Below are positions 3,353 to 30,381 of a DNA stretch of 32,111 nucleotides, in pieces. A program made the position numbers and the translations under genes. Within the stretch, counting starts at the first letter, position 1. Each line of letters opens with the position of its first letter. Origin of the DNA: Mycoplasmataceae bacterium (GTDB lineage Bacteria > Bacillota_I > Bacilli_A > Mycoplasmatales > Mycoplasmoidaceae); the NCBI GenBank assembly GCA_031258945.1, contig JAIRME010000003.1, forward strand, positions 1 through 32,111, read 5' to 3'. A model generated the notes under the pieces. The model made no database searches. It was not told the origin of the DNA and saw only the letters and a list, made by a program, of their open reading frames with translations.

Positions 3353-4274
3353 TTTTATATTTCTCAATAAATTGAAACCCTTTTGTTGTTAATTCGCGTC
3401 CATGAATAGAACGATGAATATATTGTTTTTGTAACAAATAAGGTTCCACCTTTGTTTCAATAGTATATATATCCACATTAATAATTTGACTAATAGTTTT
3501 TAACCCTAATGGTCGATTAGCATTTTTAATAGAGTGTAAATAATTTAAATCATCAATGTCAAGACCTTTACTGATAATTTGTAATTTTTTTAAAATTGTA
3601 TTGATTGACATTTTTTCATTGTTAATTCGAAAGTCTTTTACTCTTCTAATTAGACGATTAGCATTACGTGGAATTCCTTTTGAATTTTCCGCCAGGATTA
3701 ATAGTTCTTTTTCACTAAGATTTAATTGTAATTTACCCATAGAAGTCTTTAAGATTTCCACAATATCTCTTGTTTCATATGTTTTTATATTAAATACAAT
3801 GCCAAACCGTTCTTCTAATGGTTGAGGAATTTTGCCCAATAAAGTAGTTGCCCCAATTAAAGTAAATTGAGGAATTTTGATTCTAGTAATTCTGGAATTA
3901 AAATCTTTCCCTAAAGCAATATCAATTACAAAATCTTCCATAATACTATATAGCAGTTCCACACATTGAGGATTAATAGCATGAATTTCATCAATGAACA
4001 AAATGTCCAATTCATTTAATGTCATAGCTAAATTGATAATGTCTATATTTTTTTGTATACTGCTTCCTTGCACAATCTTAATTTTGCGATTTAATTCATT
4101 TGCGATAATATGTGCTAAAGATGTTTTACCAGTACCTGGTAATCCATACAACAAACAATGATCTAATGCTTTATTTTGGGATAAACACGAATTCAAATAA
4201 ATACGAAGATTTTCTTTTAGCTCGGATTTCCCTTTAAATTCATCTAAATTAATTGGTCTTAAATGTACCTGCAT
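3342..4274 (-). CDS. ruvB: Holliday junction branch-migration ATPase RuvB
   Basis: A 310-residue AAA+ motor of the RuvAB complex, which drives branch migration of Holliday junctions. Visible elements are the N-terminal MQVHLRPINLDEFKG, Walker A GLPGTGKTS, Walker B ILFIDEIHAI, sensor region LIGATTLLGKIPQPLEERFG, and arginine-rich RNANRLIRRVKDF. A C-terminal winged-helix domain has GLKTISQIINVDIYTIETKVEPYLL. I chose ATG 4274 because the protein then begins as other RuvB proteins do; a TTG at 4292 would add six residues. The start overlaps the ruvA stop by 26 nt, so translation is coupled. Length is slightly below the usual 330-340. Confidence 0.93.
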   Translation of the reverse strand: MQVHLRPINLDEFKGKSELKENLRIYLNSCLSQNKALDHCLLYGLPGTGKTSLAHIIANELNRKIKIVQGSSIQKNIDIINLAMTLNELDILFIDEIHAINPQCVELLYSIMEDFVIDIALGKDFNSRITRIKIPQFTLIGATTLLGKIPQPLEERFGIVFNIKTYETRDIVEILKTSMGKLQLNLSEKELLILAENSKGIPRNANRLIRRVKDFRINNEKMSINTILKKLQIISKGLDIDDLNYLHSIKNANRPLGLKTISQIINVDIYTIETKVEPYLLQKQYIHRSIHGRELTTKGFQFIEKYKNEK

Positions 4275-8919: not shown

Positions 8920-9972
8920 CTAAAATGTCATCCTTTTAAAATTATTGTTAATGCTATCTATTAAGATTGGTTTAATATTAACCGTGCGATCATAATAGGT
9001 TTCACTAGTAAAACTAAAAGTATTATGAAAGCAATAAATGCGTAAATTGTTATTTTGTACAATTTGCGTAATTACTTCATAATACCCTGCACTTCTAGTG
9101 GGTATATAAAAACCTTTATTCCCTATTAAATTGGTGGTTATATCTTTGGTTGTATCATCATAGGTTGTGATAGCATCAAAATTAATGTCGCAATTATTAT
9201 TAATAGGTAATATATCTTTATTTTCATAATGATATTCATGGATTTTATTTTCGTTACCAACTGAATAATAAAAATTAATGCGATAATTAACAATAGCAGC
9301 AGGTTGGTTTGCTTGTAATGTTAATAAGTAAATAATAGGTTTTTTTAACTCATCGCAATCATTATTCATTTTGTAATAAATGATGGATTGATTACTATAT
9401 CCACCATCGCTATACGAAGTTAAATAATATTGATTCCCATTGTCAAATCAGCCATCAATATTAGTAAATTTTAAATAATTACTGTAATTAAAACATACCG
9501 TTTGTTTTTGGAGAATTCATTCGTTTAAAAAATTATTGGTTTCATCATTTTCGTTATTGAATGTTGCTTTACTAATGACTTCAGCATCATAATTAAAAGA
9601 TAGCAATAAATACATGCTGTAATTACTAATTTGCTGATCAAAAAATTTATTGCCGTTAGTATCTATATTAATGGAAGCTTGGTAAACTTTACATTTATTA
9701 GGCTGACTAACAAATTTAGGAACACAAATATATGGATTTCAATTTAATGAAACGTCATTAACTGTTGCATAGGGTAAGGTAAGATTTACATTGAGCATGT
9801 TCATCGGCAAATTGCTATTCATGACAACATAAAAATTTAGATCAATGAATCATCGATTGTCATGGATAGCAAGATTTCCATCTACATTATCAACATAAAC
9901 ATACCGATAATTATTTACCAGGTTACCCGACAACTGTTGAATATTGTAATCAGTTGTGGTTGAAGTACTCAT
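8920..9972 (-). CDS. Hypothetical 350-residue beta-rich protein
   Basis: One open frame of 350 residues read through four TGA codons. It is rich in Asn, Tyr, Ile and Asp, with alternating hydrophobic patterns typical of beta sandwiches (WFIDLNFYVVMNSNLP, YYLTSYSDGGYSNQS, GFYIPTRSAGYYEVITQ). The two halves share a loose pattern: a Phe-Tyr strand early, then a G-Y-rich strand late. This may reflect two related domains. No signal peptide or membrane helix is evident, so export is not supported despite the surface-protein-like composition. It starts 5 nt after the upstream HTH-like gene and is followed 2 nt later by a membrane-anchored protein. No family recognised. Confidence 0.75.
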
Positions 9973-26649: not shown

Positions 26650-26958
26650 CAAAGTTCTTGTAAGTTGATTCTGAATATGTTGTATATATCACATTTGTTA
26701 TTCTACTGAAGTAGAGCATTGAAGTTTGGTATGATTACTAATACTAAGAATTGTTAATTTGTAGTCCGCAATAATTACTTTTGTTAATTATTCAAGATAC
26801 ATAACACGAATATTTATTTACATTTGAAACATTAATTTTGAATAAAAATTGTTCTTTTTTCAAAATAGGTAAGCTTTATTCATCATTTTTCCCATATAAT
26901 ATCAACGAAATTTTAAAGGTGTTTCCATTTTGGTAAAAATATATGTGGGGTATAGATA
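26650..26958 (+). promoter_or_regulatory. Long leader/promoter region of the surface protein gene
   Basis: No gene is present. TATAAT at 26895-26900 is the only good -10 box; its -35 region is weak. It predicts a leader of about 52 nt. A small palindrome, TCTACT-GA-AGTAGA (26702-26715), lies further upstream. No convincing ribosome site precedes the ATG at 26959 (GTGGGG lies 8 nt upstream). Nothing else recognisable was seen. Confidence 0.4.
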
Positions 26959-29900
26959 ATGAGCAACAACAACGTTATTAAAAATAATGATGGGGGGGGT
27001 GTTTTATCATCTAAACGCTATAAGGCTTGACGCCGCCACAAAAAACTCAAAGTTGCATTAACAAGTGCATTAGCTGTGACTACCATAGGTGGTGCAGCAG
27101 CAATTAGTATTATTACAACAAAACCTAAGTCAAAACCTGTGCTCCAATTTGAACCACACACAATTGATGAAAATTTAAAAGTTAACGATCCAAACGGTAC
27201 AATGAAAGTAACTGTAGCAGAAACTGATACTGAATCATTCGCTACCCCTGAAGTACATTTTCTCAAAGATGGTATAAATGTTGACCAATATTTTGAATGA
27301 AAAGATAATTGATCTACTAATAATTTGGAAGGCACTCGTACAATTATACTAAAAGATGCTACTGACCAATATTGGCAAAACCTTGATTTGAATTCCTCTC
27401 TAAATTTTCAAATTGAAGTTAATGTAGAAAGACGAAGTAAAACAGTTGATTTTCAAATAAATTCGCAAAATTCAATTTCTGCCCTCAGTGTTGTACGCAC
27501 AAACTTACAAGTGGGCGTCCCCAATTCAGAAGAAATTATTCATGCTAATACTAAAGGTTTTGATCCTGAACAACTTGAAATAGATACAGGCGAAACAGGG
27601 TTAGATTATGAATACATTCATAATTCTCAATGAAGAATATATGCAAGTAATCCTGCGAACATTTCTGCTGGTAATAAAACTATATATTTGAAAGCCCCAC
27701 AAGTTGAACCCGAACCTTTTATTGTCCATGTTGATTCTGCTCAAAAAATTATTACAACTATTACTAGTAATAATTTACAAAAAAATGTAACAGATACAAA
27801 TGCAACTATTGCATTGGAATCAGAGAACGGTGCCAATATAGATTATATTTTTTGTGAAGACATTACTGAAAACATTGAAGATAATGAAAAACTTCAATTA
27901 ACATATGACAAAGATACTCAAGTGCTAACTGCAATATCAGTAGACTCTAATAATGTAGCTACTGGTGAACACAAAATCAAAATATCCTCATTACTTTCAC
28001 CTAAATGAGATGATGTAATAATTAATTTGAATGTTTTTTCCGAAACTCAAAAAGCTATTTCAGCAGTAGTTATTAATGATAATTTACAAAAGAATGTTAC
28101 TACTTCAACCGCTCAAATAAAGGTTAACAAATTTAATATAGATGCATTAGATTCAATAGAATTTGTCAATTTACCAGATGGTTTATCTAACGGTGGATGA
28201 ATTAACGATGGTGATTCTTCGATAGGCACATTACAGTGAAATGGTATTGAACCTGGAGAATATACATGTGAGGTTAAGGGAATATATAGTAGTGATGCAG
28301 CTCAAGACGAAGTCACTGCTAATGTTGACATATTTGTTAGAGACGAAAAAAACATTGCAGCTTACATTGATACTAACAACATGGTATACAACAATGCTGA
28401 CTCTACTGCTGTTGTACAAATTCAATTAATTAATAGTTCTAATCCATCTATAGATCTTGATGATGTAGATTATGATTTATCGGACAGCGGTTTTGAATGC
28501 AAAAACATACAAATTATTGATAATAAAAAGCAATTTACTTTTACACCAGGTACGGCTAGTATCGGCAGTCATCAAATCAAATTTTTCTTGAAATCTGATT
28601 CAAATACTACTATACCTGTTAACTTAATTGTATCTAAACCAGAAGAAAAAATGGTACATATGAGTTTAGACAACAATTTATTAAGTCTAGATACACCTGC
28701 CGTCCCAATTACCGCAACCCTTACTGTTGATGGTTTTTCACCACAAGAATTGCCAACTGATATAAGTGGCTTTAATTTTAGTGATGATATTTTACCTGAG
28801 TTTAACATATCTTGAGACAATCAATGAATTAACAATCGCATTGCTAAAATTGAATTTACACTAAAAGATGATGCAAAACCTGGAACATATGAATTAGCAA
28901 TTGGAATTGATAATGTACAAAGTGACCCACAAGAAATAGAAATTGTTGCAAGTTATACATTAGAGCTCCCACAAACTACTGATTTTTTTACTTTTGGAAC
29001 AACTTATGAACCAAACGATACCATCACTGGATATGCCGATGCATTTGTCAATAGTTGAGTAAGTGATCAAACGTTAAATGTTTATTTAGCTGAACGACAC
29101 GTAACTGGTGTGAATACATTGTCATTTCAAAATAAAGTTGTATCCAGTGCACAATTTGCATTCAGTCCAAGTAATACAAAGTACACAAACATTAATACTT
29201 TTTATAAACGTTTAGGCAAATTAAATTTCCGTGCGGCAAAATGAAATTGAGACGTTATTACCGACCAAACAATATATGGGGCAATTGGTCTTAATACCCC
29301 AATTATTTCTACTGGTATTTGCTCATTTGGTGGTAAAGTTCTTTTTTCAGATGGTGAAACATCTCCTGCAGCAGACTTTAGCAATGTATCTTCCATAGAT
29401 TGAAATGATGTCAATTTTGCTCCTGATGCTATTCCTGATGCATTATTCGAAGGTGATCCGGCTCCCATGTATGTGAGTACAATGTCTTTTACTTTTTCAG
29501 GTATTAATTTTGAAAGTTTAAGAAGTTTGGATCTTGAATATGCTAATTTTGCAGGTAGTTTTGCAACAAGCAGCACAAAAATGAATAATCATGAAGTTTA
29601 TACTGCTCTTTATACTTTTTATGATACAAACTTATCTAAACTGGAAAAATTATATTTATCCGGTACTAGATTCGCTGCCACTGGAATGGGGAAATATTTT
29701 ATGAATACTGCCTCAAATACTTTTCGAAACTCAAACCTTTCGAATGTAAAATATCTTAATTTATCACAAGCTTATTTTGCTGATGAAAATATGATAAGCC
29801 CAATCAGTCCTTGCAATGTTCTCACAGCTGATTCTACTTTTATGGGGGCAAACTTTAATAGTGTCACTGAATTTAGTACGAGTGGAACATATTTTTCTTT

Positions 29901-30381
29901 TGTTAATATGGTGGATGTTACGAAGACAACAAATACGTACGTGGCTTCTTGTTATAATACGTTTGACCATAGCAGTTGAGATTCATTAAAAACATTGAAT
30001 TTAACTAATACTGCTTTTGTTCCATCTACAGGTAGTTCCCAATATGTTGAGTGTCAACCGGCAATTGGTTTATTTGCCTCTTCTAGTATGCCTTCTATTG
30101 AAAAAGTTTATATAACAGATTTATCTATTTATCGACAAACTTGAGAAACACCCCAAGATGGATATGACACTGGTAATGGAATAGATACAACTATCTTTCA
30201 AAGAATAACATCCGCTCAACAAGATATATACATATATGGAACACAAGAAAACACATATTTTGAAGAAGTGCCATATGATGACGCTACTACAAAAGATCTT
30301 TTTGATTCATATTGATTTGGAGCCCAGAAGCAGTATATTCATTACATTAGAGTCGGAACCGGACTTACAAATAGAAAATAA
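26959..30381 (+). CDS. Large repetitive surface protein, probably phase-variable
   Basis: One frame of 1140 residues with many TGA (Trp) codons. A basic cytoplasmic start (SSKRYKAWRRHKKLK) precedes a single membrane helix at about 31-54 (VALTSALAVTTIGGAAAISII). There is no lipobox, so it is probably anchored N-in with the rest outside. Residues ~60-663 form six tandem units of about 100 residues starting near 60, 161, 261, 364, 463 and 563. The units share xNxLQxNVT-like openings (units 3 and 4: NNLQKNVT, NDNLQKNVT) and PGxYxxxxG-like ends, an Ig-like pattern. After a linker domain, residues ~845-1060 hold six leucine-rich units (TFRNSNLSNVKYLNLSQAYF, TFYDTNLSKLEKLYLSGTRF), BspA-like. Codons 12-14 contain a run of eight G. 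Adhesin or antigen role is inferred. Confidence 0.75.
26992..26999 (+). repeat. Poly-G (8) tract near the surface protein start
   Basis: Eight G residues lie in codons 12-14 (GAT GGG GGG GGT), the only such run seen in this A/T-rich window. Adding one G gives a TAA five codons past the tract. Removing one G gives a TAA about 20 codons on. The present length keeps the 1140-codon frame open, so slippage would switch the gene off. Confidence 0.8.

Follow-up and report, generated by a model that had tools for sequence, protein, structure and literature searches.

A run of eight G (G8) near the start of a 1140-codon gene is very probably a coding contingency locus, that is, an ON/OFF switch, which belongs to a set of about 70 tracts that would control the surface of a Mycoplasmataceae bacterium. 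The window that was analysed, a stretch of 32,111 nucleotides, is contig 21 of an assembly of 835,014 bases in 46 contigs (85.8% complete, roughly 29-30% G+C), and its tract would be a single visible member of an extensive poly-G phasome, borne by a very small, A/T-rich genome. A second finding concerns a family of repeat-bearing 5' leaders found elsewhere in this genome and in its relatives, which we tend to regard as attenuator-type switches.

The G8 tract and its gene

When the window is read with code 4, the gene spans 26959-30381 on the + strand, with 16 TGA codons read as Trp. Its ATG (26959-26961, +) has an in-frame TAG two codons upstream, and a TATAAT that is likely its -10 box can be read at 26895-26900 (+); the spacer of this promoter holds no poly-C. 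As an earlier note made from the same letters had stated, eight G lie in codons 12-14 (26992-26999, +) and the frame is open only at this length or at changes of three, so that nine or seven G lead to an early TAA: one alternative register is closed 4 codons past the tract (27012-27014, +), the remaining one 19 codons past it (27059-27061, +). The assembly therefore holds the gene in its putative ON state. The next in-frame starts after the tract are a GTG at codon 40 and an ATG at codon 82, and since none is usable between the tract and the hydrophobic segment that follows, translation must cross the tract. The arrangement is that of a contingency locus, with a repeat of an unstable type inside the ORF, near its start, where a change in length toggles between full length and early stop. 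A possible 9-codon upstream ORF (26930-26959, +), putatively started by a TTG after AAAGG (26915-26919), ends in a TAA that overlaps the ATG of the gene (TAATG), an overlap at 26959 that suggests translational coupling of the two frames.

The earlier description of the product as a giant surface protein is reasonable, since it has a cationic N-terminal tail, a single hydrophobic segment at about residues 32-54 (27052-27120, +; preceded by KRYKAWRRHKKLK) and a predicted beta-rich ectodomain; it is best described as a predicted membrane-anchored protein with beta-rich, Ig-like repeats. Searches with Pfam, PDB sequences and plasmid tblastn gave no confident family. The AlphaFold model is beta-rich and poor (pLDDT 50.6), so its Foldseek matches to Ig-like, S-layer and invasin structures are only indicative. 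The neighbouring genes are presumably rmuC-like on one side and CTP-synthase-like on the other, as named from their sequences. Elsewhere in the window, amid housekeeping genes, there is a 350-aa Asn/Tyr-rich ORF (8920-9972, -) with no function assigned.

Two orthologues of the window protein (P0001) occur in the congener G024 (46% and 43% identical), and their alignments start at about residue 29. Both are devoid of the first 28 or so residues, including Gly12-14, and the tract is hence not conserved protein sequence; conservation of the Gly run in relatives was what the earlier note had named as speaking against a switch. One G024 homologue (L042) has an unrelated G8 in mid-gene (a C run at 4101-4108 of the locus) that codes for LGGD, where its G024 paralogue reads LGRD.

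G tracts across the genome and its congeners

Taken alone, a single G8 in 32 kb would be weak evidence. No other run of G or C in the window reaches 6 (the next longest are of 5), TRF listed no other clean mono- or dinucleotide repeats there, and the three overlapping G6 matches that the tract provides were equalled in 17 of 100 shuffles of the window. Within the window, the tract is thus only modestly unusual. Across the genome, chance does not account for such tracts: there are 69 of G>=8 (34 + 35) against 0.8-1.0 expected under a first-order Markov model. With G>=7 the count is 73, of lengths 7 (4 tracts), 8 (33), 9 (26), 10 (6), 11 (3) and 12 (1). Inspection of the surroundings of all 73 revealed three placements: the 5' ends of ORFs (mostly in lipoprotein signal peptides), the spacers between -35 and -10 boxes, and a repeated 5' leader.

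In the first class, nine lipoprotein genes carry a tract upstream of or beside the lipobox cysteine, in register in five (L059, L065, L066, L080 and L095) and out of register in four (L061, L062, L077 and L097), where the frame after the tract is long and intact. Repeats well above chance (69 against about 1) are associated with variable surface genes, as in known contingency loci. A gene for an ABC-type ATPase (L071, 3934, -) is also out of register, at a G8 after the Walker A region. At two contig ends (C1, L059; C35, L089), 97% identical genes carry G8 and G9; we rejected them as clean length variants owing to 7 mismatches, which make them paralogues or strain variants.

In the second class, a -10-like hexamer lies 0-8 nt downstream of 17 of the 73 tracts when these are read as poly-C, against 6 of 73 when the orientation is reversed and a background rate of 6.8%. 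Such a promoter tract is sometimes accompanied by a second one in the leader or signal peptide of the same gene. Among congeners, tract counts range from 67 in G002 and G024 to 0-6 in many others. At least a dozen pairs of divergent tracts, 71-73 bp apart, occur in G002, and in each pair that was read one lipoprotein gene has both a poly-C in its promoter spacer and a poly-G in its signal peptide. Five G002 loci (L210, L224, L228, L232 and L238), with tracts about 73 bp apart, look like two stacked switches.

Organism and mismatch repair

Scanning the genome contigs with the window protein found no relatives, and RecA was used in its stead to place the organism. RecA is 89% identical to that of two MAGs labelled 'Mycoplasmataceae bacterium' and 80% identical to that of Hm464_bin127. 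The termite-gut bacterium Ancillula hodotermitis has another genome of the Hm464 series as its type (PMC11707648), which makes a termite gut the likely source. The 'mycoplasma surface antigen' of the earlier note has to be adjusted to this setting, an uncultured Mycoplasmataceae MAG whose nearest RecA relatives are gut MAGs, apparently from a termite sample series, so that evasion of adaptive immunity is not an obvious purpose. Insects, one of which is the presumed host, lack adaptive immunity, which calls for another driver of surface variation, for which protist partners, phages and other microbes are candidates.

MutS1 was not found in this genome or in 25 relatives, whereas 11 of 14 control genomes gave a match. 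That the gene is missing merely through incomplete assembly is unlikely, because it is absent in all of the relatives.

A probable coding switch and its rivals

The proposal of an ON/OFF switch is supported by the genome-wide excess of tracts, their 5' placement at surface-protein genes and their mixed registers, and further by two orthologues that lack the Gly run and by the failure to detect a MutS1. Mechanistically, replication slippage would add or remove a G at the window tract, and the start codon would be in frame with the 1126 downstream codons only at 8 plus or minus multiples of three, so that one register would leave the cell ON and the other two would leave it OFF. The roughly 70 tracts of the genome would then control surface proteins at three levels (promoter spacer, transcribed leader and coding start), the benefit being that the cell varies how its surface meets protists of the gut, other microbes or phages. 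Population switching, the rate of slippage and the benefit at the window tract are what we infer from these patterns. Two observations count against a switch: G8 is among the shortest tracts of this genome (range 8 to 12 for G>=8), and the window tract precedes a hydrophobic segment, whereas the lipoprotein tracts lie in or beside a signal peptide.

The tract might be an ordinary Gly-Gly-Gly, kept for reasons of the protein and not switching, as would suit a tract that is in frame in an intact protein. This is improbable when GGG is used less than any other Gly codon (9.7% of those in the 23 other ORFs of the window), the orthologues dispense with the Gly run, and the genome-wide excess of such tracts extends to non-coding promoters and leaders. 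There is also a slim chance that the tract does vary, with a graded effect, transcriptional or ribosomal slippage on G8 yielding some full-length protein in every register; homopolymers can indeed cause polymerases or ribosomes to slip, but this would modify the switch instead of replacing it. It is very improbable, finally, that the length is an error of sequencing or assembly and that the gene is perhaps OFF in most cells. Homopolymers are error-prone and a metagenome assembly gives the majority length, but the assembled length yields an open frame of 1140 codons, and 73 tracts of 7-12, patterned in their placement, cannot all be artefacts. The ON/OFF switch is therefore the reading that we retain for the window tract.

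Repeat-bearing leaders

The third class of tracts defines a leader that is present in 18 copies in this genome (20 model hits), in the order TATAAT, 5-7 nt, ATG, poly-G, hairpin 1, intrinsic terminator, ribosome-binding site and gene, with the poly-G beginning 12-19 nt after the A of the ATG (poly-G leader loci L063, L069, L070, L071, L072, L074, L075, L077, L078, L084, L087, L090, L091, L093 and L096). The genes behind these leaders encode lipoproteins, or proteins with a cationic N-terminal tail and a hydrophobic anchor like those of the window protein; several leaders are followed by such an N-terminus, an example being DNKKYLKWKKQHTRKIAWTS. The window gene itself is not preceded by a leader element: model R1 matches the window only at chance level, and the pairing of a repeat-bearing leader ORF with a terminator is missing upstream of it.

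Model R1 locates copies in the relatives G024 (13), G021 (11), G006 (2) and G019 (2), and none in 15 genomes of other families. The leaders of G021, G019 and G006 mostly have (GA)n as their repeat and keep the order of parts seen in poly-G leaders. Model R2, built on the (GA)n leaders of relatives, adds (GA)n leaders from this genome (C16 and C32), from G024 and, in one copy, from G001; the (GA)n loci, from relatives and twice from this genome, include L182, L186, L188, L191, L197, L203, L239, L240 and L247, among others. Weak R2 hits at L241 and L243 were rejected as leaders, since they are without a terminator or an ATG.

Of the three frames past the repeat, one runs into or beyond the terminator, and two meet a stop upstream of its 5' arm. 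This rule is obeyed by each of the 27 poly-G leaders tested, which came from this genome and G024, and by 51 of 52 leaders from six genomes, (GA)n types included. Roughly half of the shuffled leader segments also have one such frame and no more, which leaves a single leader with little weight; with one vote per sequence cluster (65% identity), however, the rule holds in 7 of 7 against 3.2 expected (P = 0.004). When substituted bases were randomised in the poly-G family, all 27 leaders had an open frame in 6 of 2000 trials and exactly one in 4 of 2000, figures that call for caution, as changes are shared among related copies. In the terminator helix, which is supported by folds, 8 of 15 pairs show compensatory change and 97% of cells are paired; on four of five measures no shuffle came up to the structure as a whole. 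The register is open in 5 of the 18 leaders of this genome, which is near one third. Two degraded copies fit the switch model: L090 (C36, 1842-1959) has lost its ATG and has an interrupted G run, while in L181 (G021) ACG replaces ATG and all three frames are closed. An Rfam search gave no match to the leader, its matches being tRNA and tmRNA only.

In predicted folds, the leader repeats pair with the pyrimidine-rich arm of hairpin 1, so that a structural role for repeat length is possible, and poly-G length might mainly tune the hairpin-1 stem. We nevertheless lean, without great confidence, towards an attenuator-type switch for this leader family. It is, on balance, somewhat probable that a genus of Mycoplasmataceae, probably from termite guts, carries a multicopy and possibly mobile 5' cassette that is a phase-variable transcription attenuator. 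In this attenuator, the poly-G or (GA)n of a near-leaderless mini-ORF would set the frame, and a single frame would take the ribosome into the intrinsic terminator, upon which the surface-protein gene would be transcribed. If true, the cassette, the poly-C switches in promoter spacers and the poly-G switches in coding sequences would amount to a stacked, combinatorial control of the surface. The leader family would also offer dozens of natural variants of a repeat-controlled attenuator, in which the frame rule is directly testable.

Relation to known systems

Coding poly-G switches are classic, and the probable switch of the window gene is of a kind already known. In meningococci, 115 genes have been predicted to be phase-variable (PMC5084427). 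The poly-G loci of Neisseria and Campylobacter resemble the window locus in that there are many per genome, the tract is near the 5' end of a surface-protein ORF, and its register decides between full length and truncation. Here, in contrast, the organism is a mollicute of about 29-30% G+C, probably from an insect gut and known from one assembly, in which the same type of tract is also found in promoter spacers and attenuator-like leaders. Closer to home, Ca. Mycoplasma girerdii is likewise an uncultured mollicute, associated with the protist Trichomonas, in which repeat length sets the ON/OFF state of BspA-like surface proteins, with variants seen in reads (PMC5476646). Its repeats are mostly dinucleotides (20 loci), although one methyltransferase is controlled by a G8 (PMC5476646), whereas here they are mostly poly-G, with (GA)n in some leaders.

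For the leaders, as distinct from the window gene, the nearest precedent is pil1 of S. gallolyticus, where leader-peptide attenuation with GCAGA repeats was shown by experiment at two pilus loci (PMC3894217). In both cases a short leader ORF holds a repeat that determines which frame is read after it, and some frames lead into an intrinsic terminator upstream of a surface gene (in the leaders described here, the ribosome would be taken there in one register). The leaders differ in their repeat, which is poly-G or (GA)n and is predicted to pair in hairpin 1, in their number, as many as about 20 per genome, and in a near-leaderless ATG after TATAAT; their attenuation is predicted from sequence. 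By analogy, they fit phase-variable attenuation of the pil1 type, here as a multicopy family; in the openly licensed literature, we found no second case of this repeat-controlled type.

As for promoter-spacer tracts, precedents cited in PMC10502178 are the poly-A promoter tract of vlp in M. hyorhinis and the promoter-spacer repeat of vmm in M. mycoides. A promoter-region repeat changes the transcription of mycoplasma surface lipoproteins there as it may here, where the repeat is instead poly-C, accounts for 17 of 73 tracts, and sometimes comes with a second tract in the leader or signal peptide.
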